Assembly (NCBI GenBank): GCA_016190535.1
Contig: JACPQK010000019.1
Coordinates: forward strand, 1 to 13,333
From: Chloroflexota bacterium
Lineage (GTDB): Bacteria; Chloroflexota; Dehalococcoidia; JACPQK01
Length of the DNA: 13,333 bases
Direction: 5' to 3'
Shown: positions 1 through 13,333 of the stretch, one piece after another
Position numbering within the stretch: the first letter of the stretch is position 1
Layout of the letters: each line of letters begins with the position of its first letter
The notes under the pieces: generated by a model
Database searches by the model: none
What the model was told of the DNA's origin: nothing
The model's input: only the letters and a program-made list of their open reading frames with translations
Made by a program: the position numbers and the translations under genes

Positions 1-579
1 ATGAAGGCTATCGCCAGGGTCTGCCTCCCCCTCTTCGGCCTGGGCCTCCTGCTCCTCGCCCTACCCGGCCCTGCCCTGGCCCTGGGGCCGGTCAATACCG
101 ACCTGGAGTTGCTGTTCCCGCCGGAGCCTGTGGTGGGCCAGGAGCTGGCCCTGGCGGCCCGGGTAAGGGACCCCTCGGGGGCAGGGGTGCCGGGAGTGGA
201 GGTCGTCTTCACCACTACGGCCACCTTCCTCAACGCGGAGAGCGAGCTGGAGTTGGGCCGTGCCGTTACCGACGAGAGGGGCATTACCACCTTCAGCTAT
301 TTACCCCGCAGTGAAGGGGAGATAACGGTCTCCGCCCTCTTTGCCGGAAATGACCAGTACAGGAAGAGAGCCGCCAGCGGCCAGATGGTAGTGCTCCCCG
401 GCCTGCCCCAGTACCACCAGGAGATCGGGCTGCGGGTGCCCGGCGTAGGGGTCTGGCTGCTGGTAGCATTGATGGCCGGCATCTGGGGGACCTTCCTCTG
501 GGCCTTGGGACAGGTGAGGGTCATTTTCCGGGAGGGGCAGGAAGTAGCATCTTCCGAATGGGGGCGCCGTCATGTCTAG
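1..579 (+). CDS. Exported Ig-like-domain protein with C-terminal membrane anchor
   Basis: Seen: residues 1-28 form a typical signal peptide (basic start, Leu-rich core, cleavage near ALALG). Residues about 33-132 are rich in beta-strand patterns of a bacterial Ig-like/invasin-type fold (PEPVVGQEL, AGVPGVEVVF, TDERGITTFSY). Residues about 148-172 form one hydrophobic membrane span, followed by a short, basic-to-mixed cytoplasmic tail. Inference: a single-pass protein holding one Ig-like domain outside the membrane. The ATG is the first base of the window, so upstream signals cannot be seen, but the complete signal peptide argues that this is the real start. It overlaps the next gene by 8 bases, so the two are probably co-translated and may work together at the cell surface, for example in respiratory-complex assembly. 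The exact function is unknown. Confidence 0.75.
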   Translation: MKAIARVCLPLFGLGLLLLALPGPALALGPVNTDLELLFPPEPVVGQELALAARVRDPSGAGVPGVEVVFTTTATFLNAESELELGRAVTDERGITTFSYLPRSEGEITVSALFAGNDQYRKRAASGQMVVLPGLPQYHQEIGLRVPGVGVWLLVALMAGIWGTFLWALGQVRVIFREGQEVASSEWGRRHV

Positions 580-1456
580 ACCCGTCGTACCCGTATTGGC
601 CTTTACCCTGGTGCTGGCCCTGGCCCTGGGGCTGATTTTGGGCATCATCCTGCGTCCCTGGGTAGGTCTGGCGGCGGGCACCTACCTGAGCGTGGATGCG
701 CCTTCTGGCACAGGCTATAGCCGGTCAGCTCTCTCCTATGTTGGAGACAGCAGGTCTGTCAACTGGGGGCACAGCGCCCAGTTCCTCCATCCAGAGCTGG
801 AGGAGGGCAAAGCCTACTATGTGGCCTACGGCTGTGCCAGTTGCCACGGCCTCGATGGGAAGGGCAGCCGCTGGGCGCCCATGGAGGTGTCCAGCCCGGG
901 GCAGATCGGCATCATGGTACGGGCCGGTCCCGGGGGCATGCCCGCCTACCCCAAGGCATACTTGCCGGACGAGCACCTGGAGGCCATCACCTCCTGGCTG
1001 GCCTCCCAGGGGGCGGTGGTAGCGAGGCCCACGCCTACCCCCTTGCCCACCCCGACCCCGGAGCCCACGCCTGCCTCGCCGGAGCCAACGCCGGTTCCCC
1101 CGTCGGAGGGCACCCCTGTCGTCCCATCGGAGGAGGCCTCACCCACCCCCATGCCTACCCCCACGCCCTCACCTACGCCCACACCCGCCGCAGTGGCAGG
1201 TGACCCGGAGCGGGGCCTGGCCCTCTATACCCAGAACAAGTGCTCCCGCTGCCACGGCAAGGCCGGGGCGGGCACGGACCTGGCACCAGCGCTTGACACG
1301 GCGGAGTTCCATGATAAGTTTGCCCAGGATGGCGACCTGGTCCGCTTGCTGCGGGAGGGCATCGGCGACATGCCGGGCTACGACTCCACCAAGCTCCCCG
1401 AACAGGGGCTGGCCGATATCATCGCCTACGTGCGCTCCCTGCGCCCCAAGCCATAG
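572..1456 (+). CDS. Membrane-anchored di-haem cytochrome c with Pro/Thr linker
   Basis: Seen: residues 7-35 form an N-terminal hydrophobic anchor or uncleaved signal. The first class-I cytochrome c domain has CASCH (C88, C91, H92) and a likely distal Met ligand at M123 (GGMPAY). Residues about 152-207 are a low-complexity Pro/Thr/Glu linker (PTPTP repeats). The second domain has CSRCH (C224, C227, H228) and likely ligand M267 (GDMPGY), and ends with the helix IIAYVRSL typical of these domains. Known: such proteins carry electrons outside the cytoplasmic membrane. Inference: a tethered two-haem electron shuttle. The partner oxidase or dehydrogenase is not in the window and may lie upstream. 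The ATG lies inside the end of the preceding gene, indicating translational coupling. Confidence 0.93.
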   Translation: MSRPVVPVLAFTLVLALALGLILGIILRPWVGLAAGTYLSVDAPSGTGYSRSALSYVGDSRSVNWGHSAQFLHPELEEGKAYYVAYGCASCHGLDGKGSRWAPMEVSSPGQIGIMVRAGPGGMPAYPKAYLPDEHLEAITSWLASQGAVVARPTPTPLPTPTPEPTPASPEPTPVPPSEGTPVVPSEEASPTPMPTPTPSPTPTPAAVAGDPERGLALYTQNKCSRCHGKAGAGTDLAPALDTAEFHDKFAQDGDLVRLLREGIGDMPGYDSTKLPEQGLADIIAYVRSLRPKP

Positions 1457-1682
1457 GCCCTCGGCCCTCATCCCCCACCCACCGGATGCTAAAATATCCA
1501 GGGGGCCCCTGTCTCCCCTAGTCGCATGCCGGTGAGAACAGTCTCCGTCCAGGGAGGGCGAGATGCAACCTACTCTACCGCTTGATGGTGCGATAGCGTA
1601 GCCCTGCCCTTTACCCTAATACAGCGATGGGCATTGCCTACCTTCACCCGCCAGATGAAATCCAGCCACTTCTGGCATGTCG

Positions 1683-1758
1683 GATACCTCACCCCCTTGC
1701 TGGCTCCCTTCCTCCTTCGGCACGTTCAGGACAGGCTCTGCAGGAGAAGGGGAAACAG
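1683..1758 (-). repeat. Dispersed repeat, inverted copy of 7110-7183
   Basis: Read on the minus strand, this segment aligns over about 75 bases with 7110-7183. Shared blocks are CTCCTGCAGAGCCTGTCCTG, GAAGGA and GGGGGTGAGGTATC. The core resembles the widespread 'GCTCAGGACAGGC' family of bacterial intergenic repeats. No coding potential is seen. Confidence 0.75.
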
Positions 1759-1946
1759 AAAACTTCAGGGGGTGTCCTGTGAGACTATCTCCCCCCCCTC
1801 TTACGACTAAGGGGGAGCCAGACGCCGTCCTGGTCCCTCGGTCTTGAGGGCCTCAGCCCGAAGGCTTGCCGAAGGAGGGGGTGTTCATCTGGCGGCTGTT
1901 GGAGCAGGCTACGGGCCAATCGCTAGTTTTCGGCTCTAAGCCCCGA

Positions 1947-1975
1947 TTGCCTGGCCTCCCCTGCTGTGGTACTAT
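1947..1975 (+). promoter_or_regulatory. Candidate sigma70-type promoter of speD-speB-M50 unit
   Basis: TTGCCT (1947-1952), a 17-base spacer, then TACTAT (1970-1975). Each box matches consensus at 4 of 6 positions. Predicted start of transcription is near 1982, about 50 bases before the speD start. This is the best-spaced pair in the gap, but the boxes are only moderate. Confidence 0.4.
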
Positions 1976-2021
1976 ATGGATTTGCTGGTCAAAAATAGCC
2001 TGCCCGCCAAACACTGAACAT

Positions 2022-2026
2022 GGAGG
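2022..2026 (+). promoter_or_regulatory. Shine-Dalgarno site fixing the speD start
   Basis: GGAGG lies 8 bases before the ATG at 2035 and overlaps the alternative in-frame ATG at 2020. The upstream ATG has no such site. Initiation at 2035 also gives the usual N-terminus of the family (MHLIIDGYG). Confidence 0.75.
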
Positions 2027-2034
2027 CTCAGCCA

Positions 2035-2427
2035 ATGCACCTGATCATCGATGGATATGGGGCGGACCCCAGCCGACTCCAGGACTTCTCTTTCATCTAT
2101 CACCTGCTGGATGAGTACCCCTCCCGCATCGGCATGCACAAGATCTCCTACCCCCATGTGATAGAGTATAAACAGGGGACCCCGGAGGACTGGGGCCTCT
2201 CCGGATTTGTCTTCATTGCCGAAAGCCATATAAGTATCCATACCTATCCTGCCCGGAGCTATGTGAATATAGATGTCTTCTCCTGCAAGCCCTTCGACCC
2301 GGAGCCCGTGGCCCGGGAGCTCCAGAGGGATTTTTGCTTCGAACATGCCCATACTTGGGTTGTCGACCGGGGCCCCTATCCCGCCCATGCCGCCGCACCA
2401 GCAGCGGGGCAGGAGGCCCGCACCTAG
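2035..2427 (+). CDS. speD: SpeD-family pyruvoyl-dependent decarboxylase
   Basis: Seen: 130 residues, the size of short bacterial/archaeal AdoMet decarboxylase proenzymes. The self-cleavage motif GLSGFVFIAESHISIHTYP places the pyruvoyl-forming serine at S64 (cut between E63 and S64). The processing residues known from the Thermotoga enzyme (Ser55, His68, Cys83) correspond to S56, H69 and C84. The N-terminal HLIIDGYG motif is also present. Odd: the common HTWPE reads HTYPA here, and the stretch before the cleavage motif departs from the usual ANAT region. Known: the classical role is making decarboxylated AdoMet for spermidine. Some SpeD homologues, including ones from Chloroflexota, are instead arginine or ornithine decarboxylases. 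Inference: with agmatinase 5 bases downstream and no spermidine synthase here, an arginine decarboxylase role is possible. Family assignment is firm; substrate is not. Confidence 0.93.
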   Translation: MHLIIDGYGADPSRLQDFSFIYHLLDEYPSRIGMHKISYPHVIEYKQGTPEDWGLSGFVFIAESHISIHTYPARSYVNIDVFSCKPFDPEPVARELQRDFCFEHAHTWVVDRGPYPAHAAAPAAGQEART

Positions 2428-2432
2428 CGAGC

Positions 2433-3329
2433 ATGGCTCAGGACTATTTAGTACCCCTGGGTAACTTCGCCGGCCTCTCCCCCCTGGAGGCGGACTTCGC
2501 CAGCGCCCGGGTGGCCATCGTGCCCGTCCCCTACGATGCTACCGCCACCTTCAGGCAAGGGGCACGGGAAGGCCCCAGCGCCATTATTTCAGCCTCCCCT
2601 GAACTGGAGCTGTACGACGTGGAACTGGACTGCGAGCCGACCCAGCTTGGCATTCACACGCTCCCTTTTGTCGAGCCCGTGCTCGGCGACCCTAAAGCCA
2701 TGGTAGGCCGGGTGGCTAGCGTAGTGGGCGACCTGCTGGGCGCGGGCAAGCTGGTAGGCCTTCTGGGCGGCGAGCACACCATCACCCTGGGGGCAGTGCA
2801 GGCATACGCTGGGGCCTATCCTGACCTGAGCGTCCTCTACCTGGACGCCCACGCCGACCTGCGCGACCAGTATATGGGCACTGGCTACAGCCACGCCTCG
2901 GTGCTGCGCCGCTTGCTAGAGATATGCCCAGCCACGTTAGTCGGAGTGCGCAGCCTCAGCCTGGAAGAGAAGAATTGCCTGGACTCCCCGGAGCTGAGCG
3001 TCGTATGGGGCCACCAACTGTCGGCGGGAATGGGCATGGAGCGGGTGCTCTCCAGCCTCTTATCCCAGGTGTATATCTCCGTGGACCTGGATGTGCTCGA
3101 TCCCTCCCTGGTGCCGGCCGTGGGCAACCCCTCGCCCGGAGGACTGAGTTGGCGGGAGCTGCTGTCCATCCTTCGCCTGGTGGCCCAGAGACGGCGCATC
3201 GTGGGCTTCGATGTCACCGAGCTTTGTCCCGGGGCAGGCCCCCCCGCCTGTGCCTTCACGGCGGCGGCCCTGGTCTATAAGCTTATCGGCTATGCCACCC
3301 ACCCGGGGCGGATCCCCGCGGAGCGCTGA
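2433..3329 (+). CDS. speB: Agmatinase (ureohydrolase family)
   Basis: Seen: 298 residues with the ureohydrolase metal-ligand motifs in order: GGEH (112-115), DAHAD (138-142), SHAS (153-156), SVDLDVLDP (216-224, with ligands D218 and D220) and GNPSPGGLSW. Known: a binuclear Mn enzyme hydrolysing agmatine to putrescine and urea; arginase and formiminoglutamase share the fold. The agmatinase call rests on length, the PSPGG segment and the polyamine neighbour. The start at 2433 was chosen because the protein then begins like family members and sits 5 bases after the speD stop. An AGGAGG lies rather far upstream (16 bases), so translation is probably coupled to speD. An in-frame upstream extension into speD is possible but would add unrelated sequence. 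It likely forms an arginine-to-putrescine route with its neighbour. Confidence 0.9.
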   Translation: MAQDYLVPLGNFAGLSPLEADFASARVAIVPVPYDATATFRQGAREGPSAIISASPELELYDVELDCEPTQLGIHTLPFVEPVLGDPKAMVGRVASVVGDLLGAGKLVGLLGGEHTITLGAVQAYAGAYPDLSVLYLDAHADLRDQYMGTGYSHASVLRRLLEICPATLVGVRSLSLEEKNCLDSPELSVVWGHQLSAGMGMERVLSSLLSQVYISVDLDVLDPSLVPAVGNPSPGGLSWRELLSILRLVAQRRRIVGFDVTELCPGAGPPACAFTAAALVYKLIGYATHPGRIPAER

Positions 3330-3332
3330 GAC

Positions 3333-4448
3333 ATGCGAGGCTCCCTCCCCCTGGGGAAGCTCTTCGGTATACCCTTCCGGATCAACTATAGCTGGTTCGC
3401 GATCTTCGCCCTGCTCACCTTCACCCTGTCCCAGGTGTTACCCCCGAAGGAGCTACAACTGTCCCCCTTGCAGGCCTGGGGCCTGGGCATAGTCACCAGC
3501 CTGCTCTTTTTCGCCTCGGTGGTGAGCCACGAGCTGGCCCACAGCCTGGTGGCCCGGGCCAGTGGCATACCCGTGCGCAGCATCACCCTGTTCATCCTGG
3601 GGGGTGTCTCCCACCTGGGGCGGGAAGCTACCCGGCCAGTGGTCGAACTGGCGATGGCCTTCATCGGACCCCTCACCAGCCTGGTGTTGGGAGCCGCTCT
3701 GCTCTGGGGCCTGGCCCCCGCAACCCGTAGCTCTGCGCCCCTGGTGATGGTAGTGGCCCAGTGGCTGGGGAGCATAAACATACTCCTGGGCCTGTTTAAC
3801 CTCATACCCGGGTTCCCCCTGGATGGGGGCCGGGTGCTGCGGGCCCTCCTCTGGATGGGTACAGGAGACATGCCTAGGGCCACTACCGTGGCGAGTTGGA
3901 TCGGCCGGGGGGTAGGCTACCTCTTCATCCTGGGGGGCCTCTACTTCATCTTCCGGGGAGAGGTAATAGGTGGCATGTGGTTCGCCTTTATCGGCTGGTT
4001 CCTGGAGAATGCAGCCTCCACCAGCCAGCGCCAGCTCCAGGCCCAACTGGCGCTGCAGGGCCTTACCGCCGGGTCCCTGGTCTCCCGGAACTTCGTGACC
4101 GTCCCTTCCCACCTGACCGTGGACGAGCTAGTACGTAACTACCTGCTTCCCATTAACCCCCTGGCCGTGCTGGTCGCCCGGATGGACAACGTGGTGGGGG
4201 TATTCACTCATAAGGTCCTTCACCGCGTCCCCAGGACCACTTGGCCCACGGTCCCCCTCGCTCAGGTAATGACCCCCCTCGCTCGGACACCCACAGTACC
4301 CCCCTCAGCCCCTGCCAGCGAACTGCTGGGCCTCCTCAGCGAAGGGGAGGCCCTGGTCCTGGTCATGGAAGGGAGACAGGTCCTGGGCATCGTAGACTGG
4401 GAGGGCCTCTCCCGCTTCATCCGCATCAGGTCCACCACCTTGAGGTAG
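3333..4448 (+). CDS. Site-2 protease (M50) with C-terminal CBS-like region
   Basis: Seen: 371 residues. Several membrane spans surround HELAH (66-70), the zinc and catalytic motif, and NLIPGFPLDGG (156-166), whose Asp164 is the third zinc ligand. Residues about 247-371 form a soluble region with two CBS-like half-repeats (VSRNFVTVPSHLTVDELV and VMTPLARTPTVPPSAPASELL). Known: this SpoIVFB/Rip-like group cuts transmembrane segments of regulators such as anti-sigma factors, and CBS modules bind adenine nucleotides. Inference: an energy-sensing intramembrane protease; its substrate is unknown. It begins 3 bases after the agmatinase stop with CGGAG (3319-3323) as ribosome site, so it shares the transcript, though a functional link to polyamines is not evident. 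Confidence 0.93.
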   Translation: MRGSLPLGKLFGIPFRINYSWFAIFALLTFTLSQVLPPKELQLSPLQAWGLGIVTSLLFFASVVSHELAHSLVARASGIPVRSITLFILGGVSHLGREATRPVVELAMAFIGPLTSLVLGAALLWGLAPATRSSAPLVMVVAQWLGSINILLGLFNLIPGFPLDGGRVLRALLWMGTGDMPRATTVASWIGRGVGYLFILGGLYFIFRGEVIGGMWFAFIGWFLENAASTSQRQLQAQLALQGLTAGSLVSRNFVTVPSHLTVDELVRNYLLPINPLAVLVARMDNVVGVFTHKVLHRVPRTTWPTVPLAQVMTPLARTPTVPPSAPASELLGLLSEGEALVLVMEGRQVLGIVDWEGLSRFIRIRSTTLR

Positions 4449-4505
4449 CCCTGCCAGCGTCCCTCCTGGTGCTGCCCTGGCGATGGATGTCGCTGTAGGC
4501 CCCAC

Positions 4506-4693
4506 CTACTGTCCTGTCCCCGAAGTACGCCGATAATGTCATTGCGAGGCCCGACGGTTCGAGGTCCTCACCACAGGCTCCAGAGGGCCGTGGCAATCTG
4601 GTGGCAGCGTCTACCCCTCCTCCAGATTGCTTCGTCGGCTGCCGCCTCCTCGCAATGACAATTCATACGCGTACTTCGGGGACACCACACTAG
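4506..4693. mobile_element. MITE-like palindromic element
   Basis: Seen: outer arms at 4506-4530 and 4669-4693 are inverted copies matching 22 of 25 bases, with 15 perfect (GTCCCCGAAGTACGC at 4516-4530 against 4669-4683). Nested inside are GTCATTGCGAGG (4538-4549) with CCTCGCAATGAC (4648-4659), and GCAATCTG (4593-4600) with CAGATTGC (4623-4630). It is flanked by CTAC and CTAG. There is no coding capacity. The inner palindrome is the widely distributed 'GTCATTGCGAG...GCAATCT' bacterial repeat. The whole could fold into a long cruciform or RNA hairpin and may end transcription of the M50 unit. The outer end GACACCACACTAG recurs at 6998 and 7244. Confidence 0.8.
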
Positions 4694-4723
4694 TACAAGT
4701 TGTGGAGTAAAGTGACCTCTATA

Positions 4724-4732
4724 TGCTATAAT
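4724..4732 (+). promoter_or_regulatory. Extended -10 promoter of the iscS-iscU unit
   Basis: TGCTATAAT at 4724-4732 is a perfect extended -10 (TGnTATAAT). No good -35 is seen; TTGTGG at 4700 is 21 bases away. Predicted start near 4739 gives a leader of about 45 bases before the desulfurase gene, whose ribosome site is AGGGGG (4772-4777). Confidence 0.65.
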
Positions 4733-4783
4733 TCCAGTTGCATCGTAGTAGGTCCGGTTCAAGGGCTATCTAGGGGGTAGCAG

Positions 4784-5971
4784 ATGGGCAAACTGATCTA
4801 CATGGACCACGCCGCCACCACCCCGGTGCACCCCAAGGTGCTCGAGGCTATGCTGCCCTACTTCTCGGAGAAATACGGTAACCCCTCCAGCGTCTATGCC
4901 ATTGCCCAGGAGGCCAGGAAGGCGGTGGACGAGGCCCGGGAGCGGGTGGCCCGGGTCCTGGGGTGCCGCCCCAGTGAGGTCATTTTCACCAGCGGTGGCA
5001 CAGAGGCGGACAATGCCGCCATCCGCGGGGCTGCCCTGGCCCTGCGCCCGGTGGGCAACCATATCATCACCTCCAGCGTGGAGCACCATGCGGTGTTCCA
5101 CACCTGCCAGGCCTTGGAGAAGCTGGGCTTTGAGGTCACCTACCTGCCCGTGGACAGCTATGGACAGGTAAGCCCAGAGGACGTGGCCCAAGCTATCACC
5201 GAGCGGACCACGGTCATCAGCATCATGCTGGCCAACAACGAGGTAGGGACAATCCAGCCTATCGCCGAAGTCGCCGCCATAGTGAAGGGCCACCGCCAGA
5301 AAGGGCGCAATATCGTCTTCCATACCGATGCTGTACAGGCCCCCGGGGCCCTGGAGTTGGATGTCAATAAGTGGGGGATGGACGCCATGAGCCTCTCCGC
5401 CCACAAGTTCTATGGGCCCAAGGGAGTAGGAGTTCTCTATCTGCGGCGAGGCACACCCTTTACCCCTTACCAGACCGGGGGCGCTCAAGAGCGGAACCGC
5501 CGCGCTGGCACTGAGAATGTCCCGGGCCTTGCAGGCCTGGCCACAGCCTTGGAGATAGCCCAGGCGCACCGGGAGTCCACCAGCCAGCACTGCCGCCGCC
5601 TGAGGGGCCGCCTCATCGATGGGGTGCTCTCCCGGGTCGAGCGGGTCCGCCTCAACGGCCATCCCACCAGCCGCCTGCCCAACAACGCTAACTTCGTGTT
5701 CGACTTTGTGGAAGGGGAGTCCATCCTGCTCAACCTGGACTTTGCGGGGGTGGCCGCCTCCAGCGGCAGTGCCTGCACCTCGGCCTCCCTGGACCCCTCC
5801 CATGTGCTCCTGGCCATGGGACTGCCTGCCGAGGTGGCCCACGGCAGCATCCGCTTCAGCCTGGGCCCCAACAACACTGAGGAGGACGTGGACCACGTGC
5901 TCTCCATCCTCCCCGGGATCGTCGCCCGGCTGCGGGCCATGTCCCCCCTGACTCAGACCCCCATCAGCTAA
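4784..5971 (+). CDS. iscS: Cysteine desulfurase (NifS/IscS type)
   Basis: Seen: 395 residues, normal for the family. [12 protein letters not shown] opens the fold; [10 protein letters not shown] carries the cofactor-stacking His (H101/H102); D182 lies in HTDAVQ; the PLP lysine is K208 in [12 protein letters not shown]; the catalytic cysteine is C331 in [14 protein letters not shown] follows the PLP site as usual. Known: it removes sulfur from cysteine as an enzyme persulfide and passes it to a scaffold or tRNA-modifying partner. The short active-site segment SSGSACTS and the IscU partner 14 bases downstream suggest Fe-S cluster assembly. NifS and IscS cannot be separated by sequence alone, so the symbol is by type. 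No IscR-like regulator is adjacent. Confidence 0.95.
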
Positions 5972-5985
5972 CCTGGAGGTCCTTC

Positions 5986-6471
5986 ATGTATAGCGACAAG
6001 GTAATGGACCACTTCTTCAACCCCAGGAACGTAGGCATGATCCCCGACGCCGACGGGGTAGGCATCGCCGGGAACCCGGTGTGCGGAGACCTCCTCAAGC
6101 TCTTTATCAAGGTCAAGGACGACGCCATTGAGGACATTAAGTTCCAGACCCTGGGCTGCGGGGCGGCTATCGCCACCAGTAGCATGGTCACCGAGATGGT
6201 AAAGGGGAAGACCCTGGAGGAGGCCAAGACCGTCACCAATCAAGCCGTAGCCCAGGCCCTGGGGGGGCTGCCCCCGGTGAAGATGCACTGCTCCAACCTG
6301 GCCGCCGATGCCGTGCAGAAGGCCATCGAGGACTACGAGGGCAAGCGGGGCATCAAGAAAAGCCGGGAGTCCTTGTTTGAGGGCCAAGGCACGGAGGCCG
6401 GTGTTCGGGGCGGGCGAGAGTCCGAGGCCTACTCTGAGCACCACCACGAAATTCCCGAGGAAGAGGACTAA
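5986..6471 (+). CDS. iscU: Fe-S cluster scaffold protein (IscU/NifU N-terminal type)
   Basis: Seen: 161 residues. It starts MYSDKVMDHFFNPRNVG and holds the three cluster cysteines C33 (NPVCGD, with D35), C58 (LGCGAAIATSS) and C102 (MHCSNLA). Residues 1-130 are the complete scaffold domain. The last 30 residues are an unconserved charged tail ending in an HHH and acidic stretch. Known: the protein receives sulfur from the desulfurase and iron to build a 2Fe-2S or 4Fe-4S cluster for transfer. GGAGGT (5975-5980), 5 bases before the ATG, supports the start. The tail lacks the ferredoxin-like and C-terminal modules of full-length NifU. It is probably the last gene of the unit, with a strong hairpin 13 bases after the stop. 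Confidence 0.95.
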   Translation: MYSDKVMDHFFNPRNVGMIPDADGVGIAGNPVCGDLLKLFIKVKDDAIEDIKFQTLGCGAAIATSSMVTEMVKGKTLEEAKTVTNQAVAQALGGLPPVKMHCSNLAADAVQKAIEDYEGKRGIKKSRESLFEGQGTEAGVRGGRESEAYSEHHHEIPEEED

Positions 6472-6476
6472 CCCGC

Positions 6477-6513
6477 ACCCCTGCCCTCTCCCAGTGGGAG
6501 AGGGTTAGGGTGA
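6477..6513. repeat. CCCTCTCCC hairpin repeat, possible terminator
   Basis: CCCTCTCCC (6484-6492), loop AGT, GGGAGAGGG (6496-6504) is a perfect 9-bp stem, extended imperfectly by CACCCCTG and TTAGGGTG. It lies just after the scaffold gene and could stop transcription or protect the 3' end, but no T-run follows. The same repeat type occurs at 9134-9214 and, degenerate, near 11644. Confidence 0.7.
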
Positions 6514-6832
6514 CGGAGATCAAGCCTGGGGTATGGCGGTATACCAAGGGGAGGGACTCTGCGCCCTCCCCCTTCGTTTCTCTTTGCAGGTGGCAGGCCC
6601 CGGCCCAAGAACTATTACCCCTGGCTGATGGTCATAAACAAATTATGTTGACATTTTGCGCCCCCCTCCTTCGGCGAACTCAGGACGGGGTCTGGCTTCC
6701 CCTCCCTCCGATGAACTCAGGGCATCACTTGGGCGTAAGAGAGGGACTGGGCTCAGCCCAGACCCACGAGAGGCTGCGCCGCAAGGGGTATGTTGCTAAG
6801 GCATGAAGGAATCCGTGGGTGCGGGCCAGCCC

Positions 6833-7010
6833 GCCAGGGGACACCCCCTGAGACCCCTGGCAGGGGGCGGAGCCCCCTGCACCCCGGGGAAGGTGCAGGA
6901 AACCTGCGGTTTCCTGTGGGGGTTTGGGGGTATCTCCCAGAATTCCCTCCCTCCCCTCTCCTGCTGGAGAGCGCCCATTTTTCTAAAGAACTATGGAGAC
7001 ACCACACTAG
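6833..7010 (+). repeat. Hairpin cluster, partner copy of 7007-7256 element
   Basis: Perfect stems: CAGGGGGC/GCCCCCTG (6861-6879, loop GGA) and CAGGAAACC/GGTTTCCTG (6896-6916, loop TGC). It then runs through GGGGGTATCTCCCAGAATTCC and CCCCTCTCCTGC, matching the downstream copy. The right end 6985-7010 matches 7231-7256 at 23 of 26 bases. A matching left end was not found, so this copy looks truncated. Confidence 0.65.
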
Positions 7011-7256
7011 TGTCCCATCTCGGAAATACATTGAATAAATCAGGGCTCGTGCGGGTGCAGGCCGACAGGTCGGCCTGCCGGGGGTCTGGGGGTGTCCCCC
7101 AGATTTCCTCTCTTTCCCCCTCTCCTGCAGAGCCTGTCCTGAGCGGAGGCGAAGGAAGAGGGGGGAAAGGGGGTGAGGTATCAGCCGCCACCAAGGGCGT
7201 GAACCGAGTAGATAGGCGTCAGAATTACTCAAAGAATTAACGAGACACCACACTAG
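7007..7256. mobile_element. MITE-like element bounded by CTAG
   Basis: Left end CTAGTGTCCCATCTCG (7007-7022) and right end CGAGACACCACACTAG (7241-7256) are inverted copies matching 12 of 16 bases. CTAG is present at both borders (7007-7010, 7253-7256), as a 4-bp target duplication would give. Internal perfect hairpins are CAGGCCGAC/GTCGGCCTG (7058-7077) and TCTGGGGG/CCCCCAGA (7085-7103). It contains the dispersed repeat 7110-7183. It is too short for a transposase and no open frame is convincing. It shares its left CTAG with the end of the upstream copy. Confidence 0.65.
7110..7183 (+). repeat. Dispersed repeat, copy of 1683-1758
   Basis: Same repeat as the inverted copy at 1683-1758, with shared blocks CTCCTGCAGAGCCTGTCCTG and GGGGGTGAGGTATC. 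Here it lies inside the CTAG-bounded element, indicating that the repeat can be carried by such elements. Confidence 0.75.
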
Positions 7257-7385
7257 ATAGCAGAACATTGTGGCCGAGATCGTACGCTAAAAGCTTCTTA
7301 ACGCACTAGAGGCTAATAGCGATAGCTTAGATAGCGGAGCAATATGCCGAAATAGGGCGACACAAATGATTTATCGTTCACTCTC

Positions 7386-7414
7386 TTGACAAAACATCCT
7401 GCTGGCCATAGACT
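7386..7414 (+). promoter_or_regulatory. Sigma70-type promoter of the solute-binding protein gene
   Basis: TTGACA (7386-7391, perfect -35), a 17-base spacer, then TAGACT (7409-7414, 4 of 6). Predicted start near 7421 leaves a leader of about 33 bases containing GGAGGT (7441-7446), 7 bases before the ATG at 7454. Confidence 0.65.
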
Positions 7415-7453
7415 TGGGCATACTCTCAATCTGACTTTAGGGAGGTACAAGAG

Positions 7454-9103
7454 ATGTCCAGCAGGCACAGATTCGGGGCAATGGTGGGTATCCTGGTCCT
7501 GTTGCTGGCTGCCTGCGGGCCGGCGGCCACACCCACGGCTGCCCCGCAGCCCACGGCTACGCAGCCGCCCGCTACACCGGCACCAGGCATAGCGACAGCT
7601 ACGCCCACACGGGCGGCGCCCACCACAACGCCTACCCAGGCACCCTCCGCTACGGCCCCCAAGATTGGGGGCACGCTGAAGATGCAGGACAGTGACGGCC
7701 TCACCTGGGACCCCCATGCCCAGCTAGCCGCCGGCCTAACAGATACCTACCATATCTTCGATCCCCTGGTGCGGCTAGACTTTGACCTGCGCCCTATCCC
7801 CTCCCTGGCCGAGTCCTGGGACGCCCCCGATGCCACCACCCTGGTCTTCAAGCTCCGCAAGGGGGTAACGTTCCACGACGGTAGCCCCTTCAATGCCCAG
7901 GTGGCCAAGTGGAACTTCGATCGCATGCTGGACCCCGGCACCATAGCGCCAGTCCCCAAGCAGTCCCTGCTCGCCCTGGATAAGGCCGAGGTGGTAGACG
8001 ACTATACGCTAAGGCTGACGCTGAAGAGGCCGGACTCCGCCCTCCTGTTCAACCTGGGCACCTCCCACTTCTCCATGATGACCCCCCCGGCCGTGGGGAA
8101 GTGGGGCAGGGACGTAGGCCTTCATCCTGTAGGCACCGGCCCCTTTGTCCTGGAGGCTTTGTTTCCCGGGCGCGGCATGAAGCTTACCAGAAATGCCAGC
8201 TACTGGGACTCACCCCGGCCCTATGTGGGCGTGATCGACATGGTGATTACCAGCGACCCTTCCGTGATCATGGCCTCCCTGCTCACCGGCGCTCTGGACC
8301 TGTCCGGTGTTACCCTGCCCGAGCACCTGGACAGGCTGGAGAAAGACCCGGGGATGACCATCCACTCCGCACCAGGCATAGTAACCTGGGGCCTCTATTT
8401 CAACCACTTGAAAGCGCCCATGAACAACCTGGACTTCCGGAAGGCCCTGAACTTGGCGGCGGACCGGGAGGGGATGCTCAAGGCACTCCTCAGGGGGCGC
8501 GGTGATGTGGCCAATAGCCTTGTTTCCACAGCCTTCGCGGAGCATAACAATGGTCTTCCCGGAATAACGCGAAACGTGGCCGAGGCCAAAACACTGGTAG
8601 CCAGGTCTGGCTACGATGGGCGGACCCTGGACTTCGGGTGCTGGCCCGGCATCGCCACGGCTCCCAAGGTGTGCGAGGCCATGCAGGCCCAGTTCAAGGA
8701 GATCGGCGTCAACAGCCAGATCACCATGCACGCCGGCGCTGCCTACGGTCCAGCCCTGGGCGAGCTCAAGTACGATATTGCAGTAATGTACTCGCCCCAC
8801 ATCCCCATCGACACCAGGATCAATATCTTCTACCACCGGCAGGGCAGGCTCAACTCCGGGCGCTTCGGAGATACGCCTCTGGCCCGCCAACTGGAGAAGA
8901 TTATGGAAGACATCAGCATCACCTATGACTTCAATACCAGGAAGCGCCTCTTCGATGAACTCCAGCAGGTGGCCTATGACAACATGGTGGACCTCTACAT
9001 CATGTACCAGCCCGAAGTCCTGGTATCCCGGGCCAGGGTGCAGGACTTCAAGGTACATCCCGGCACCCTGGAGTGGCTAAGCGGGGTGTGGCTGAAGGAC
9101 TAG
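7454..9103 (+). CDS. ABC transporter solute-binding lipoprotein, family 5
   Basis: Seen: 549 residues. The lipoprotein signal ends in LLLAAC with lipidated C21. A Thr/Pro/Ala-rich tether spans 22-70. The mature family-5 fold starts at KIGGTLKMQDSDGLTWDPH, with the hallmarks PSLAESWDAPDATTLVFKLRKG, VTFHDGSPFNA, VGTGPFVL and NLAADREGM. Known: family 5 binds oligopeptides, nickel or various small organic molecules and delivers them to a membrane permease. No permease or ATPase gene is adjacent, so this is an orphan binding protein or one using components encoded elsewhere. Ligand cannot be named. It is transcribed alone from its own promoter. Its TAG stop lies within the CTAG border of a small inverted-repeat element. 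Confidence 0.93.
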   Translation: MSSRHRFGAMVGILVLLLAACGPAATPTAAPQPTATQPPATPAPGIATATPTRAAPTTTPTQAPSATAPKIGGTLKMQDSDGLTWDPHAQLAAGLTDTYHIFDPLVRLDFDLRPIPSLAESWDAPDATTLVFKLRKGVTFHDGSPFNAQVAKWNFDRMLDPGTIAPVPKQSLLALDKAEVVDDYTLRLTLKRPDSALLFNLGTSHFSMMTPPAVGKWGRDVGLHPVGTGPFVLEALFPGRGMKLTRNASYWDSPRPYVGVIDMVITSDPSVIMASLLTGALDLSGVTLPEHLDRLEKDPGMTIHSAPGIVTWGLYFNHLKAPMNNLDFRKALNLAADREGMLKALLRGRGDVANSLVSTAFAEHNNGLPGITRNVAEAKTLVARSGYDGRTLDFGCWPGIATAPKVCEAMQAQFKEIGVNSQITMHAGAAYGPALGELKYDIAVMYSPHIPIDTRINIFYHRQGRLNSGRFGDTPLARQLEKIMEDISITYDFNTRKRLFDELQQVAYDNMVDLYIMYQPEVLVSRARVQDFKVHPGTLEWLSGVWLKD

Positions 9104-9255
9104 TGCTTAGTTGCATAGTTGCCTGTACTATTTCCTCTACCCTTGCGGGAGAGGATTAAGGTGAGGGGTAGCTTCAATTTCACCCTCACCTAGCCTCTCC
9201 CGTCAAGGGAGAGGGACTCTTTTGCAGTAACGGGAATTTTGAAACTAAGTACTAG
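9100..9255. mobile_element. Small inverted-repeat element bounded by CTAG
   Basis: Left end CTAGTGCTTAGTT (9100-9112) and right end AACTAAGTACTAG (9243-9255) are inverted copies with 12 of 13 matches, each bearing CTAG. The interior is a long imperfect palindrome (9134-9167 against 9181-9214) built of CCTCTCCC/GGGAGAGG units with a TTCAATTT-type loop. There is no coding capacity. It probably acts as a transcript-ending or stabilising hairpin for the binding-protein mRNA. The left CTAG includes that gene's stop codon. Confidence 0.65.
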
Positions 9256-9345
9256 CCGGGGAGAAGCCTCAACACCCAGCGATTGTGTCAAGAGGGCGAG
9301 GGAGCCGTCACCTCTCAGGGACAGCTCCCTCGCTCATCCCCGGGC

Positions 9346-9372
9346 ATAAAAAGGCCTCCCTTCCGGGAGGCC
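9346..9372 (-). terminator. Rho-independent terminator of the BFN/zinc-ribbon unit
   Basis: On the minus strand: GGCCTCCC, loop GGAA, GGGAGGCC, then TTTTTA. The perfect 8-bp GC-rich stem with a T-run lies 26 bases after the zinc-ribbon stop. On the plus strand the hairpin is preceded by A's and has no T-run, so it serves the minus-strand unit. Confidence 0.88.
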
Positions 9373-9397
9373 GAGCTTGGGGGACTCCTGGAGCCCC

Positions 9398-9712
9398 TCA
9401 GTCCTTTTTGTGTTCGGCGAGGAGCCTCCGGAAATCACCGTCGAAGGTGTCCAGGAAGCTATGTATATCTAACACGTCATCGGCCGTTACCGGCTCCCCC
9501 AATTCAGGCGCTGCTTCCAATGGCTCCGCCTGACGGCCTTCCTGAACCATGGCAGCTATCAGGCTCTGGGTGTGGCATCCGGCACAAATAACGCTGAGGA
9601 ACCACAGGTCCTCCTGTTGCCCCAGCACCTGGACGTCCCGGGGCTTGAGGTTCTCTCCACAGTTGTTGCACTTGATGTGGGATACCAGCCAGCGGAACTG
9701 CCTGAGGTTCAT
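9398..9712 (-). CDS. Small zinc-ribbon protein, function unknown
   Basis: Seen: 104 residues. Two CxxC pairs, C15/C18 (KCNNCG) and C43/C46 (CAGCH), are spaced as in a treble-clef or zinc-ribbon fold. The remainder is a hydrophilic acidic stretch ending in a short predicted helix (DVLDIHSFLDTFDGDFRRLLAEH). I do not recognise a named family. The start ATG overlaps the stop of the BFN gene by 4 bases (ATGA), so both are translated together. The haem motif CxxCH formally occurs (CAGCH), but there is no signal peptide, so a zinc site is far more likely. A nucleic-acid or protein-binding role is only a guess. Confidence 0.85.
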   Translation of the reverse strand: MNLRQFRWLVSHIKCNNCGENLKPRDVQVLGQQEDLWFLSVICAGCHTQSLIAAMVQEGRQAEPLEAAPELGEPVTADDVLDIHSFLDTFDGDFRRLLAEHKKD

Positions 9713-10254
9713 CCCTTTCCCCCACCCAGGTCCTCCAGGTCCAGCTTCTCGATAACATCCCGGAAGGCGGACAGGCGCTTCAGCTCCTCCTCGCCCACCT
9801 CACCGCTACCCTCGGCTTCGGAGGAGGTCACCGGCTTGCCGGTCTCCGGGTCGAGGAGAATGCCCGCCCGTTCCAGCACCGTCTCGTCAGCGTAGATGGG
9901 CACCTTCGTGCGCACGGCCAGGGCCAGGGCGTCGCTGGGGCGTGAGTCAATGTCCACGTCCCGGTGGTCTAGCGTCAGACGGATGCGGGCATAGAAGGTG
10001 TCGTTCTTGAGGTCGCATACCGTGATGGAGGTGATAGTTGCCCCCAGGGAGGTGATCACGTTGTGGAGGAGGTCATGGGTCATGGGGCGGGGCACGGCTA
10101 CATCGTGCAGCTTTATGGCAATGGCGTCGGCCTCGGCGGGTCCGATCCAGATGGGGAGATAGCGGTTGGCCACCTTCTCCTTGAGGATCACCACCCGGTG
10201 ATAGTTTGTCAAGCTTACCCGCACACTGTCGATTACCATCTCAATTGGGGACAT
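9709..10254 (-). CDS. Bifunctional nuclease (BFN, DUF151) domain protein
   Basis: Seen: 181 residues. The BFN domain (about 4-135) has the characteristic YLPIWIGPAEADAIAI and DSRPSDALALAVR motifs and YADETVLERAGI at its end. It is followed by an acidic helical tail (154-181). Known: plant BFN proteins show DNase/RNase activity; the bacterial role is not settled. The start was set at ATG 10254 because GGAGGAGGT (minus strand, 10269-10261) lies 6 bases upstream; a TTG two codons earlier abuts the ribosome site and is unlikely. It has its own promoter (10336-10307) and overlaps the following zinc-ribbon gene. Family identification is secure; activity is not inferred. Confidence 0.93.
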   Translation of the reverse strand: MSPIEMVIDSVRVSLTNYHRVVILKEKVANRYLPIWIGPAEADAIAIKLHDVAVPRPMTHDLLHNVITSLGATITSITVCDLKNDTFYARIRLTLDHRDVDIDSRPSDALALAVRTKVPIYADETVLERAGILLDPETGKPVTSSEAEGSGEVGEEELKRLSAFRDVIEKLDLEDLGGGKG

Positions 10255-10306
10255 CGGCAAACCTCCTCCCAGTTAGCCACAACCGTCATTAGCCGCTTGC
10301 AAATCT

Positions 10307-10336
10307 ATTCTAAGCCCAGGGTTGAAGGGCTGTCAA
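10307..10336 (-). promoter_or_regulatory. Sigma70-type promoter of the BFN unit
   Basis: Minus strand TTGACA (10336-10331, perfect), an 18-base spacer, then TAGAAT (10312-10307, 5 of 6). Predicted start near 10300 gives a leader of about 46 bases with a strong ribosome site. Confidence 0.7.
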
Positions 10337-10358
10337 TCTTGGTGTCCCTGGGGCAGTG

Positions 10359-10464
10359 TGTCATTCTGAAGGAGCCCCGACCGTGTCGGGACGACTGAAG
10401 AATCCGTCCTCCGGTGGGGGGCCGGTGTGGGGGTTACGGATGCTTCACTTCGCTCAGCATGACA
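10359..10464. repeat. Palindromic 'GTCATTCTGA' intergenic repeat
   Basis: TGTCATTCTGA at 10359 pairs with the inverted CAGCATGACA ending at 10464, and GAATCCGT pairs with ACGGATGC inside. This is the common bacterial repeat of the form TGTCATTCTGAG...GAAGAATC. It lies between DUF951 and the BFN promoter and may end pyrF-DUF951 transcription. No CTAG border is seen here, unlike the three elements on the left. Confidence 0.7.
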
Positions 10465-10495
10465 TACTACCTGGGTTTCGGTCCCCTCGTCAAAC

Positions 10496-10708
10496 TCAAA
10501 TTGATACACTACCGTCCCTGGGGGCGCTGGGGGTGACCCAGCCCCGGAGGCGCTTCTCCAGAGTAGAGCGGGGCAGCAGCACCCGCCGCCCGCAGCGGCG
10601 ACAGCGCAGGCCGATATCCCCCCCCACCCGCACTACCTCCCACTCATCGCTACCGCAAGGGTGGGGCTTGCGCAGGCGCAGCACGTCGCCGGAACGTACC
10701 TCTATCAC
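10496..10708 (-). CDS. DUF951 family small protein
   Basis: Seen: 70 residues with the family pattern: an acidic start, [13 protein letters not shown] (7-19), W23, [13 protein letters not shown] (28-40) and an R/L-rich end. HPC plus CxxC suggests one zinc site. Known: DUF951 proteins are short and conserved in Firmicutes, Chloroflexota and relatives, with no settled function. The start is GTG at 10708, overlapping the pyrF stop (GTGA), with GGAGG 7 bases upstream inside pyrF. The last 13 residues are unlike the family core. It is co-translated with pyrF, though no pyrimidine role is implied. Confidence 0.88.
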
Positions 10709-11520
10709 AGGAGGGCCTCCCGGTTCGCCTCTATCTCTCGACGGAGTGATAGGGCCGCCTTACGAGCAGCCAGGGCGAAGTCCAGGCCGCGGCTGGCGTA
10801 GATCACCTGGCGAGAGACGGCGATGATGGCCCCTTCCCCCCGGGCATCAGCGCCCTCTCGAACGGCGGCCGCCAGGTCTCCCCCCTGCGGGCCAACGCCA
10901 GGGATGAGGAAGGGCATCCCCGGGCACAGCCGCCGCAGTCGCTCTACATCCTGGGGATACGTGGCGGCCACCACCAGCCCGATATTCCCCCGGGTATTCC
11001 ATTCCTGGGCCCGCTGGGCCACCACCTCGAAGAGGGGCAGGTGCTCCCCTTGGGAGGAGGTACACTCCAGGGACTGGAAATCCCTGGAGCCCGGGTTGGA
11101 GGTGCGGCAGAGGAGGAAGACCCCCTTTTCCTCGTATTCCAGGAAAGGTTCCACGGAGTCCTGGCCCAGGTAAGGGTTGACGGTGGCGGCATCGAAGCCA
11201 AAGGTCTGGAACAGGGCCCGGGCGTACACAGTGGCCGAATGGCCCACATCCCCCCTCTTGGCATCACCAATGACGGGGATGTCCCTGGGGATGTAGGCTA
11301 CCAGCCGTGAGAGGGCCGTTAGCCCTTCCAGGCCCAGGGCCTCGAAGAAGGCCAGGTTTGGCTTGTAGGCGCATACCAGGTCCGCCGTGCCCTCCACGAT
11401 GGAGCGGCAAAAGTCGTATACGGGCACGGGGGGCATCAAGGAGGGGTCCGGGTCCAGGCCCACGCAGAGCAGGCTCCGGTTTCGCCGGGAGGCGGCCAGT
11501 AGCTTGTCCATGAAGTTCAT
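10705..11520 (-). CDS. pyrF: Orotidine 5'-phosphate decarboxylase, type 2
   Basis: Seen: 271 residues from MNFMDKL. The active-site set is LCVGLDPD (D23), [10 protein letters not shown] (K53), the signature DAKRGDVG (86-93, with D86, catalytic K88 and D91), [16 protein letters not shown] and PGVGPQGGD. The long form with TSNPGS is the type 2 enzyme found in mycobacteria, Chloroflexota and others. Known: converts OMP to UMP, the last step of pyrimidine synthesis. The ATG at 11520 was chosen over an upstream TTG because the upstream frame runs through the promoter boxes (11562-11534). A second ATG at 11511 is possible. No Shine-Dalgarno site is visible, consistent with a nearly leaderless mRNA. 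Confidence 0.93.
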
Positions 11521-11533
11521 GGTTCGGGCTGCG

Positions 11534-11562
11534 ATGATAGCAGGCCCCGATACCGGGGTCAA
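11534..11562 (-). promoter_or_regulatory. Sigma70-type promoter of pyrF, near-leaderless
   Basis: Minus strand TTGACC (11562-11557, 5 of 6), a 17-base spacer, then TATCAT (11539-11534, 5 of 6). Transcription should begin near 11527, only about 7 bases before the pyrF ATG. The spacer contains a near-palindrome CCGGTATCGGGG. Confidence 0.7.
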
Positions 11563-11643
11563 GGGCTTGTTCTCCCCGATCCGGGGATTTGTTCGGTAAG
11601 ACCTGCCCTCTCGAAGGACGGGGGTGCTCCCCCTCCCCCAAGT

Positions 11644-11658
11644 ACCCTCTGGGAGAGG
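11644..11658. repeat. Degenerate CCCTCTCCC-type hairpin
   Basis: CCCTCT-GGG-AGAGGG is a 6-bp perfect stem embedded in CT-rich DNA (about 11605-11665) between the crotonase stop and the pyrF promoter. It looks like a decayed copy of the repeat at 6484-6504 and might act as a weak terminator of the crotonase unit. Confidence 0.5.
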
Positions 11659-11669
11659 GGGTATCCCTG

Positions 11670-12473
11670 TTACTCGTCCCGGAACACGGGGGCCCGTTTC
11701 TCCAAGAAGGCGGCGTGGCCCTCCCGGGCCTCTCTACTGGAGAAGCACAGGCCCTGGGCCCAGGCCTCAAAGGCCAGGTGCTGCCGGTAGTCGTTGTCCA
11801 AGCCCTGGTAAACAGCGCGCCGGGTGAGCTTGAGGGCCAGGGCAGGCCCCCTGGTCAGCTCTGTAGCCAGCGCCTGGGCTGCCTCCATAAGCTGGGCATG
11901 GGGTACCACCTGTCCCACCAGCCCGATGCGCAGGGCCTCCTCCGCCGGCATGATCCGGTTGGTGTAGAGGATGCGCAGGGCCGTCTCCACGCCCAGCAGG
12001 CGGGGCAGGTAATAGGTGAGGCCCATGGGGATAAGCCCCCTCTCCAGGAACAGAGGGACGAAGCTGGCCCCCTGGGAGGCGATGCGCAGGTCGCAGGCCA
12101 GGGCCAGGGAGAGACCACCCCCGGCGGCCACGCCGTTGACGGCGCAGATGGTAGGCTTGCCCAGGTCGTGCAGGGTGGCGAGGGCCCTGCCGAACCAGGC
12201 GAGGGGCTCGCCGGGTAGGCTGGCGCTGGCCTCGGCGATCCAGCGGGCGGGGTCCTCCCCCCGGGCCCGCAGGTCCATCCCGGTGCAGAAGGCCCGGTCC
12301 CCGGCACCGGTGAGGATAACAGCCTTCACCTCCGGGTCGGCCTCGGCGGCCTCCAGGGCCTGGACTATCTCCTGCATCATGGGGTCGGTGAGGGCATTGC
12401 GGTGCCGGGGGCGGTCCAGGGTTAGGACAGCGGCCCCCCCGCACTTCTCGCAGAGGATGTCGTGGAACTTCAT
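11670..12473 (-). CDS. Enoyl-CoA hydratase/isomerase (crotonase) family protein
   Basis: Seen: 267 residues. It starts as the family does (VLTLDRPRHRNAL). The first oxyanion-hole segment is AFCTGMDL (61-68); the second is NGVAAGGGLSLALACDLRIAS (113-133). LPRLLG (156-161) and ALRIGLVGQVV (180-190) follow. Known: superfamily members bind acyl-CoA and stabilise an enolate; reactions include hydration, isomerisation and hydrolysis. Odd: by my alignment the two hydratase glutamates (rat E144, E164) are Ser122 and Phe142, and the Asp often present after GLxP is missing (GLIPMG). A normal hydratase reaction is therefore doubtful. It lies 24 bases after the preceding gene on the same strand; no clear ribosome site, so coupling is likely. 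Confidence 0.92.
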   Translation of the reverse strand: MKFHDILCEKCGGAAVLTLDRPRHRNALTDPMMQEIVQALEAAEADPEVKAVILTGAGDRAFCTGMDLRARGEDPARWIAEASASLPGEPLAWFGRALATLHDLGKPTICAVNGVAAGGGLSLALACDLRIASQGASFVPLFLERGLIPMGLTYYLPRLLGVETALRILYTNRIMPAEEALRIGLVGQVVPHAQLMEAAQALATELTRGPALALKLTRRAVYQGLDNDYRQHLAFEAWAQGLCFSSREAREGHAAFLEKRAPVFRDE

Positions 12474-12497
12474 AGAGCGGCTGCTTGCCCGCCTGGG

Positions 12498-13181: not shown

Positions 13182-13207
13182 GTTGACCTCCTACCTGTGA
13201 TGGGGAA

Positions 13208-13213
13208 AGTATA
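13208..13213 (-). promoter_or_regulatory. Possible -10 box of the EthD-like/crotonase unit
   Basis: TATACT on the minus strand (13213-13208) matches 5 of 6 and lies about 25 bases before the EthD-like start. No acceptable -35 is seen at 16-18 bases. Nothing else could be identified in 13214-13333. Confidence 0.3.
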
Positions 13214-13333
13214 CTCCAGGTGCGAAGCTGGAGGAAGGCTTGAGGCAAATCCTTGCTCCGTAGATTCTTGCTACATGCCAGGTTGGGCGCAAATGGGGCC
13301 CAACAATCACCTCACAGGTTGTACCTGATACCC

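Follow-up and report, generated by a model that had tools for sequence, protein, structure and literature searches.

The window analyzed here, a 13,333-nucleotide stretch of DNA from a Chloroflexota bacterium (contig JACPQK010000019.1, positions 1 to 13,333), carries a gene for a small SpeD homologue and, immediately downstream, the agmatinase gene speB. Based on sequence, residue conservation, gene neighborhood, phylogenetic grouping, and the gene inventory of relatives' genomes, we conclude that this speD-speB pair is very probably an operon for the conversion of arginine to putrescine, in which the SpeD homologue is a SpeDA enzyme. SpeD-derived arginine decarboxylases have already been published (PMC10407285), and the window protein adds a bacterial case from the Chloroflexota. 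The predicted route, from self-processing through substrate to flux, is as follows. The SpeD homologue would cleave itself between E63 and S64, with S64 expected to become the pyruvoyl group; the SpeD homodimer would decarboxylate L-arginine to agmatine; and the adjoining agmatinase would hydrolyze agmatine, yielding urea and putrescine. Any spermidine would be the product of another, ordinary SpeD-SpeE pair at a different place in the genome, or SpeY would form homospermidine.

The window SpeD matches PF02675 alone in a profile scan (E value of 1.2e-25; 90.4 bits, with a cut-off of 25), and the top Protein Data Bank matches of its AlphaFold2 model (pLDDT of 88) are the S-adenosylmethionine (AdoMet) decarboxylase (AdoMetDC) structures 1vr7 and 1tlu from Thermotoga maritima (E value of ~2e-7). 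The PdaD fold (PF01862) was not matched in that scan, and PdaD was set aside as the identity of the window protein on account of this difference in fold. S56, E63, S64, H69, and C84 are all present and are invariant across 20 aligned homologues, and in the larger alignment of window-type proteins E62, S63, H68, and C83 (Thermotoga maritima numbering) are found in all 116 rows. In contrast, F49 and W70 of ordinary SpeDs are found in 0 of these 116 rows, and the window SpeD differs further from ordinary AdoMetDC in having N in place of A77 and K in place of G84. At column 73 (E72 in Thermotoga maritima), 72 of the 116 rows have Glu and 29 have Asp; the window has Ala. On the AdoMetDC equivalog model TIGR03330 (cut-off of 75.65), the window SpeD scores 70.3 bits, which is below the cut-off, as are its nearest relative (L001; 62) and a Vampirovibrio protein (P0122; 66.2); the ordinary SpeD of G001, the closest of the genomes compared here, scores 140.8.

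The window SpeB passes the NCBIfam agmatinase model TIGR01230 (208.3 bits; cut-off of 174.3) and falls far below the cut-off of the arginase model TIGR01229 (94.3 bits; cut-off of 227.6). It carries the metal-ligand motifs GGEH (residue 112), DAHAD (138), and DLDVLDP (218). No spermidine synthase was found among the window open reading frames scanned (12 of the 63 listed, at least 80 residues), and the window SpeD has no speE neighbor, being followed by speB and then by a gene for an M50 family protease. An earlier note on this DNA, made from the letters alone, had described a complete SpeD self-processing site, an agmatinase 5 bases behind it, and a window without a spermidine synthase, all of which these results bear out, the last for the reading frames scanned. 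That note had also taken the changed HTYPA segment beside the cleavage site to fit an altered substrate pocket; the change is real, but it is a weak clue, given that HTFPE and HTFPD prevail in the family.

The pairing of the two genes is common. We scanned species genomes with the window SpeD and kept the best 80 homologous loci, of which 60 are Chloroflexota by their record titles and the rest are Desulfobacterota-like, plus three Eisenbacteria. SpeB is present in 69 of these 80 loci, which argues that the pairing is not due to chance. When window-like open reading frames from all loci are counted (136, a number in which some genes appear twice and which includes a few phage, SpeDC-like, and cut-off rows), speB is directly downstream in 102 and slightly further away in 8 more. 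In seven of these 8, speY lies between speD and speB, and in one locus it lies just beyond, and SpeDA genes are described as being arranged with speB and speY (PMC10407285).

For 50 of these 80 relatives we took an inventory of polyamine genes. PdaD has no match in any of the 50 genomes, and no OKR-type decarboxylase is above the cut-off in any of them (there is one weak match, in G040). Matches to PF02784 occur in 47 of the 50; among 17 of these proteins that were scanned further, 12 pass LysA, one passes SpeA (Eisenbacteria genome G041), and four pass neither. At least two PF02675 proteins are present in 39 genomes, in all of which the second SpeD was read: it is intact and ordinary in 33, including G001, and degenerate in 6 (G002, G003, G007, G008, G010, and G040). 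SpeE-family proteins are found in 42 genomes, and speE is directly downstream of 33 of 35 intact ordinary SpeD open reading frames. The eight genomes with no SpeE-family match (G009, G012, G014, G016, G023, G029, G031, and G036) have one SpeD each, and four of them (G012, G016, G029, and G031) are among the 9 of 50 genomes that have SpeY. In the 33 genomes that have an intact ordinary SpeD, there is no need for the window type to serve as AdoMetDC. For the supply of the agmatine that the neighboring SpeB needs, the genomes sampled mostly offer no visible candidate other than the window-type SpeD, and an inventory pattern of this kind served to predict SpeDA in PMC10407285. In G001, which is the only representative of its order among the genomes available for searching and which the window's genome presumably resembles, speE stands with its own ordinary SpeD, the single PF02784 match is LysA, and there is no PdaD, OKR-type, or SpeA match.

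The same inventory bears on whether the window protein could be a bona fide AdoMetDC that is merely sited beside speB. It has the fold and the processing residues of one, and there are two lineages of relatives, the Dehalococcoidia order of G003 and the class of G040 (to which Thermosulfurimonas dismutans belongs), in which, apart from a few exceptions, no SpeD but the window type was seen to have an intact pyruvoyl center even though speE is kept. We nevertheless consider this explanation very improbable. It would mean two AdoMetDCs, and no visible source of agmatine, in genomes such as G001 in which the ordinary SpeD is intact and speE-linked, and it does not fit the absence of F49 and W70 throughout the window type. 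The ordinary SpeD-speE pair in the nearest genome is the reason we set it aside.

The phylogeny separates the window protein from ordinary SpeDs. In our careful tree, which is unrooted and has 71 rows, the window, huge-phage, and Vampirovibrio SpeD2 types (37 rows) are divided from 34 ordinary SpeDs with support of 100/100. Assayed bacterial SpeDA enzymes are represented in our trees by a single lineage, the one assigned to Vampirovibrio, to which the phage HTVC201P enzyme is added; the SpeDA enzymes of Marinimicrobia, Capsulimonas, Gimesia, Sulfolobus, and DPANN are not among the rows. The Vampirovibrio member is P0122, which is named Vampirovibrio chlorellavorus and is 99% identical to the window-like SpeD of record MW495066 in a database search. 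Because the ordinary HTWPE motif is absent from it, P0122 is probably the assayed Vampirovibrio chlorellavorus SpeD2 of Table 2 in PMC10407285; in that work SpeD1 brought spermidine production back, and arginine was the sole substrate that SpeD2 decarboxylated. The window SpeD is 38% identical to P0122.

A second pathway to putrescine would use an ornithine decarboxylase of the SpeDC kind together with an arginase, so that arginine is converted to ornithine and then to putrescine. Two statements in PMC10407285 speak for it: the assayed Chloroflexota SpeD2 in Table 1, from Anaerolinea, is a SpeDC, and SpeDC may derive from the SpeDA clade that contains Vampirovibrio. The window protein has none of the four SpeDC-diagnostic residues (Gln, Thr, Phe, and Tyr) and has V59, E63, T70, and F87 instead, at positions that we placed by means of the SpeDC-like G045 proteins L100 and L147. 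The accompanying ureohydrolase passes the agmatinase model and fails the arginase model. With both diagnostic residues and profile scores in disagreement, this pathway is scarcely credible, and it was set aside.

The interpretation as an arginine-to-putrescine operon agrees with what the earlier note had suggested, and it is well supported by SpeB pairing, inventory, tree, and residues. Two outcomes of the checks proposed in that note favor it: the window type groups apart from true AdoMet decarboxylases, and the search for a second speD, speE, speA, and pdaD, done in G001, found an ordinary SpeD beside speE and no SpeA or PdaD, so that the combination of speE with a separate arginine decarboxylase, which would have spoken against the operon, did not occur there. 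The note had further stated that substrate-switched SpeDs were reported from several phyla including the Chloroflexota. Switched SpeDs are indeed published, but the Chloroflexota precedent in PMC10407285 is the ornithine decarboxylase of Anaerolinea.

Several observations weigh in the opposite direction. SpeB is missing from 11 of the best 80 loci, some of which are at contig ends. Two window-type proteins, L012 (81.6) and L216 (87.6; from Thermosulfurimonas dismutans), exceed the TIGR03330 cut-off, which means that the score on this model does not by itself separate the types. Phage HTVC201P has an assayed arginine decarboxylase that, in a quick tree made earlier, stood apart from the window type; it fell with phiN3 and SpeDC-like rows on long branches, so its placement is unsure. 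PMC10407285 describes a Pro that is fully conserved in AdoMetDC and not in SpeDA, and each of the two columns that could hold this residue is Pro in the window. Finally, given the two lineages in which the window type is nearly always the only pyruvoyl-competent SpeD beside a retained speE, it may carry out or share AdoMet decarboxylation there.

A variant of the proposed route concerns the second enzyme. The window SpeD would still make agmatine, and the ureohydrolase would act mainly on N1-aminopropylagmatine, giving spermidine without free putrescine. Most spermidine synthases tested also yield N1-aminopropylagmatine (PMC11107197), and the agmatinase model is probably blind to the difference between the two substrates. 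We consider this variant unlikely, as none of our data prefer N1-aminopropylagmatine over plain agmatinase activity and the relatives that carry speY would need putrescine. The two activities may also coexist.

The features of the window and the related loci discussed below are collected in Table 1.

Table 1. Features of the speD-speB region of the window and degenerate SpeD loci of relatives
Feature	Position or loci	Strand	Description
speDA	2035..2427	+	Predicted to be a pyruvoyl-dependent L-arginine decarboxylase; 130-aa SpeD homologue of class 1b; ATG start at 2035 (alternative in-frame ATG at 2020), stop codon ends at 2427
Self-cleavage site E63/S64	2221..2226	+	Invariant in 20/20 homologues and 116/116 window-type rows
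H69-T-Y-P-A73, substrate-side strand	2239..2253	+	Y and A replace W70 and E72 of ordinary AdoMetDC
Catalytic Cys84	2284..2286	+	C83 in Thermotoga maritima; 116/116 window-type rows
speB, agmatinase	2433..3329	+	298 aa; ATG start at 2433, stop codon ends at 3329; TIGR01230 and motifs; 5 bases after speD
M50 family metalloprotease with CBS domain	3333..4448	+	PF02163 and PF00571; 3 bases after speB
Degenerate speE-linked SpeDs	L148-L163, L178-L207, L245-L252, L273		Relatives; catalytic center lost

The M50 protease gene is perhaps cotranscribed with speD-speB. Positions 2035 to 6471 have the order speD-speB-M50 protease-nifS-nifU, and the order is the same in L001. Among the best 80 homologous loci, M50 is present in 20 and nifS in 21.

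Two of the records with window-like SpeDs are labeled as phage. MW495066.1, 'Microcystis phage MaAM05' (L126 and L265), encodes ribosomal proteins S1, L21, and L27, isp genes, and trpS, along with a speD-speD-speE-speB cluster whose SpeD is 99% identical to that of Vampirovibrio chlorellavorus; the record resembles a bacterial contig deposited under a phage name. LR756501.1 (L125), a 735-kb uncultured phage record, has a window-like SpeD (44.6% identity), which clusters with the Vampirovibrio type.

In the order of G003 and the class of G040, the SpeD that is linked to speE has lost its catalytic center. There are 16 distinct sequences of this kind in 16 of 18 genomes of the order and 36 in 37 of 41 genomes of the class, and G075 has a second copy of the same kind. 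We compared these 52 distinct sequences at the columns conserved in at least 90% of 33 live ordinary SpeDs. All 52 have lost C83, 49 have lost E62, and 39 have lost S63, while F49, P51, G53, H68, T69, W70, P71, E72, Y75, A77, D79, R112, and G113 are kept in all 52. The columns that vary in one or both groups (L4, G5, L12, C15, A33, A39, F46, H47, G56, I60, H64, I67, F81, T82, and G84) include G56 and G84, so the loss is not limited to the pyruvoyl side. From 1,236 database homologues of the Dehalococcoidia type, 120 were listed; C83 is absent from 104 of these, every one of which keeps F49, H68, W70, and E72. The listed proteins are all 173 residues or shorter, and no natural fusion of a degenerate with a live SpeD was seen among them. 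All 61 degenerate open reading frames are immediately followed by speE (some genes being counted under two locus identifiers), and nonsynonymous divergence (dN) is lower than synonymous divergence (dS) in 13 of 13 pairs, with ratios of about 0.04 to 0.17. By these measures they are not decaying genes. TIGR03330 still calls both of two tested degenerate SpeDs AdoMetDC. The degenerate Thermosulfurimonas dismutans protein (L146) matches TIGR00535, a 334-position AdoMetDC model that we take to represent the eukaryotic form, weakly and only at positions 214 to 285 (E value of 0.0057). An approximately unbiased (AU) test of one versus two origins of the degenerate SpeDs gave no decision (p 0.516).

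In most genomes the degenerate SpeD is accompanied by the window type. In the 41 genomes of the class of G040, 34 have both, 3 have the degenerate protein only, 2 have the window type only, and 2 have neither, and the window-type sequence was read in all 36 genomes that have one. Seven genomes in which the SpeDs are on a near-genome-length contig (G063, G069, G079, G082, G083, G088, and G097) have both SpeDs and no other PF02675 protein. PF01536 has no match in any of the 41 genomes of the class, a result that is uninformative because control genomes gave no match either. Further, very divergent SpeD-like proteins are present in three genomes of this class (L240 in G092, L241 in G087, and L242 in G100). 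The order of G003 was searched with a degenerate SpeD as query rather than with PF02675: of its 18 genomes, 14 have both, G054 and G056 have the degenerate protein only, G006 has the window type only, and G057 has neither. Five genomes of this order that have both SpeDs (G055, G058, G059, G060, and G061) have no ureohydrolase match, and their live SpeDs lack the PEDWG segment. Six live window-type proteins of the order (L168, L169, L170, L171, L177, and L272) have lost PEDWG and have IHVFPE or a variant of it; ureohydrolase is unmatched in 5 of the 6 genomes that carry such proteins, and the sixth, G062, has an unlinked one. The positions changed in these proteins are candidates for arginine-specificity residues.

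For these relatives we tentatively propose that AdoMetDC could be a heterodimer in which the window-type SpeD lends its pyruvoyl center to the degenerate, speE-linked SpeD, a possibility that we take seriously while rating it somewhat short of even. The proposal is compatible with the arginine-to-putrescine operon and concerns the relatives; in the genome nearest to the window, the ordinary SpeD is intact. The degenerate subunit would provide the AdoMet-binding side (F49, S55, H68, W70, and E72), and the speB-linked, window-type subunit would provide the pyruvoyl group and the catalytic Cys, so that one live subunit would decarboxylate arginine when paired with itself and AdoMet when paired with the degenerate SpeD. 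Consistent with this are the pattern of lost and retained residues, which recurs in the listed database homologues, the linkage to speE, the low dN/dS ratios, the accompaniment of the degenerate SpeD by the window type in 34 of 37 and 14 of 16 genomes of the class and the order, respectively, and the five genomes that keep both SpeDs and have no ureohydrolase match. Thermodesulfobacterium thermophilum presumably belongs to the class of G040. It was picked from among spermine/thermospermine accumulators and has active aminopropyltransferases (PMC11107197), and decarboxylated AdoMet should therefore be made there.

A further argument comes from the eukaryotic enzyme, in which both halves of a fusion furnish active-site residues (PMC1282579). 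According to that paper, strand 4 carries the pyruvoyl Ser and an adjacent Cys, strand 12 carries the His and the ribose-binding Glu, and proteins from prokaryotes combine the residue sets conserved in the two eukaryotic halves. In Trypanosoma brucei, Y243, S249, and E266 surround the ligand (PMC5201418), and by our own comparison their spacing (6 and 17) is that of F49, S55, and E72 of Thermotoga maritima. Based on this comparison of halves, the degenerate SpeD appears to keep what its partner's site would borrow and to have lost what its own site would need.

Other observations do not fit the heterodimer. G054, a single contig of 2,135,487 bases, has a degenerate SpeD (L151) and speE, and it gave no ureohydrolase match and, with a degenerate SpeD as query (PF02675 was not run), no window-type match; a miss of the window type is unlikely, since the same query found the window type in 8 near relatives. 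G056, G064, G087, and G101, which are draft contigs, also have a degenerate SpeD and no window-type match, and G087, G092, and G100 hold the further divergent SpeDs. The loss of conserved residues extends past the pyruvoyl side, and the AU test leaves one or two origins undecided. Possible alternatives are an action of the degenerate protein on SpeE, and AdoMet activity of the window type by itself.

The SpeDA reading would add a widespread group of Chloroflexota to the known range of SpeD-derived arginine decarboxylases, and it suggests that names such as 'S-adenosylmethionine decarboxylase' on such genes are wrong. If the heterodimer proposal is true, these relatives would have a bacterial equivalent, in unfused form, of the N- and C-terminal halves of eukaryotic AdoMetDC, a bacterial enzyme whose substrate is set by its partner subunit, and putrescine and spermidine synthesis that are coupled via a shared subunit. 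The degenerate, speE-linked SpeD would then be a testable natural intermediate toward the two-half eukaryotic enzyme.

Compared with known systems, the window protein is closest to the SpeDA enzymes of Vampirovibrio chlorellavorus (SpeD2), Ca. Marinimicrobia, Capsulimonas, and DPANN (PMC10407285). Like them, it is a class 1b SpeD with S63, H68, and C83, its gene adjoins speB (with speY in some relatives), and a second, ordinary SpeD with speE is present in the nearest relative's genome. It differs in being Chloroflexota-like, in having no speY seen in the window, in having HTYPA rather than the more common HTFPE or HTFPD, and in being known here from its sequence. With class 1b AdoMetDC (Thermotoga maritima 1tlu/1vr7 and Bacillus subtilis SpeD) it shares the fold and the self-processing residues; unlike these, it is below the TIGR03330 cut-off, has F49 and W70 replaced, and lies beside speB rather than speE. 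SpeDC of Anaerolinea thermophila (PMC10407285) is likewise a substrate-shifted SpeD, and the SpeDC-like G045 proteins share with the window protein an SCK-x-F/Y-D segment following the catalytic Cys; the diagnostic residues, as placed here, set the window protein apart. SpeD-SpeDC fusions with a degraded SpeDC half also exist (PMC10407285). For the degenerate SpeDs of relatives, open-license literature listings brought up no published bacterial dead SpeD partner and did bring up SpeD papers and the trypanosomatid prozyme. Like the prozyme of Trypanosoma AdoMetDC (PMC5201418), the degenerate SpeD is a dead paralogue retained alongside one that is live. Unlike the prozyme, which relieves the autoinhibition of its partner (PMC5201418), the degenerate SpeDs have lost key catalytic residues while keeping the substrate side, and they are bacterial, unfused, half the size, and recognized here at the sequence level.

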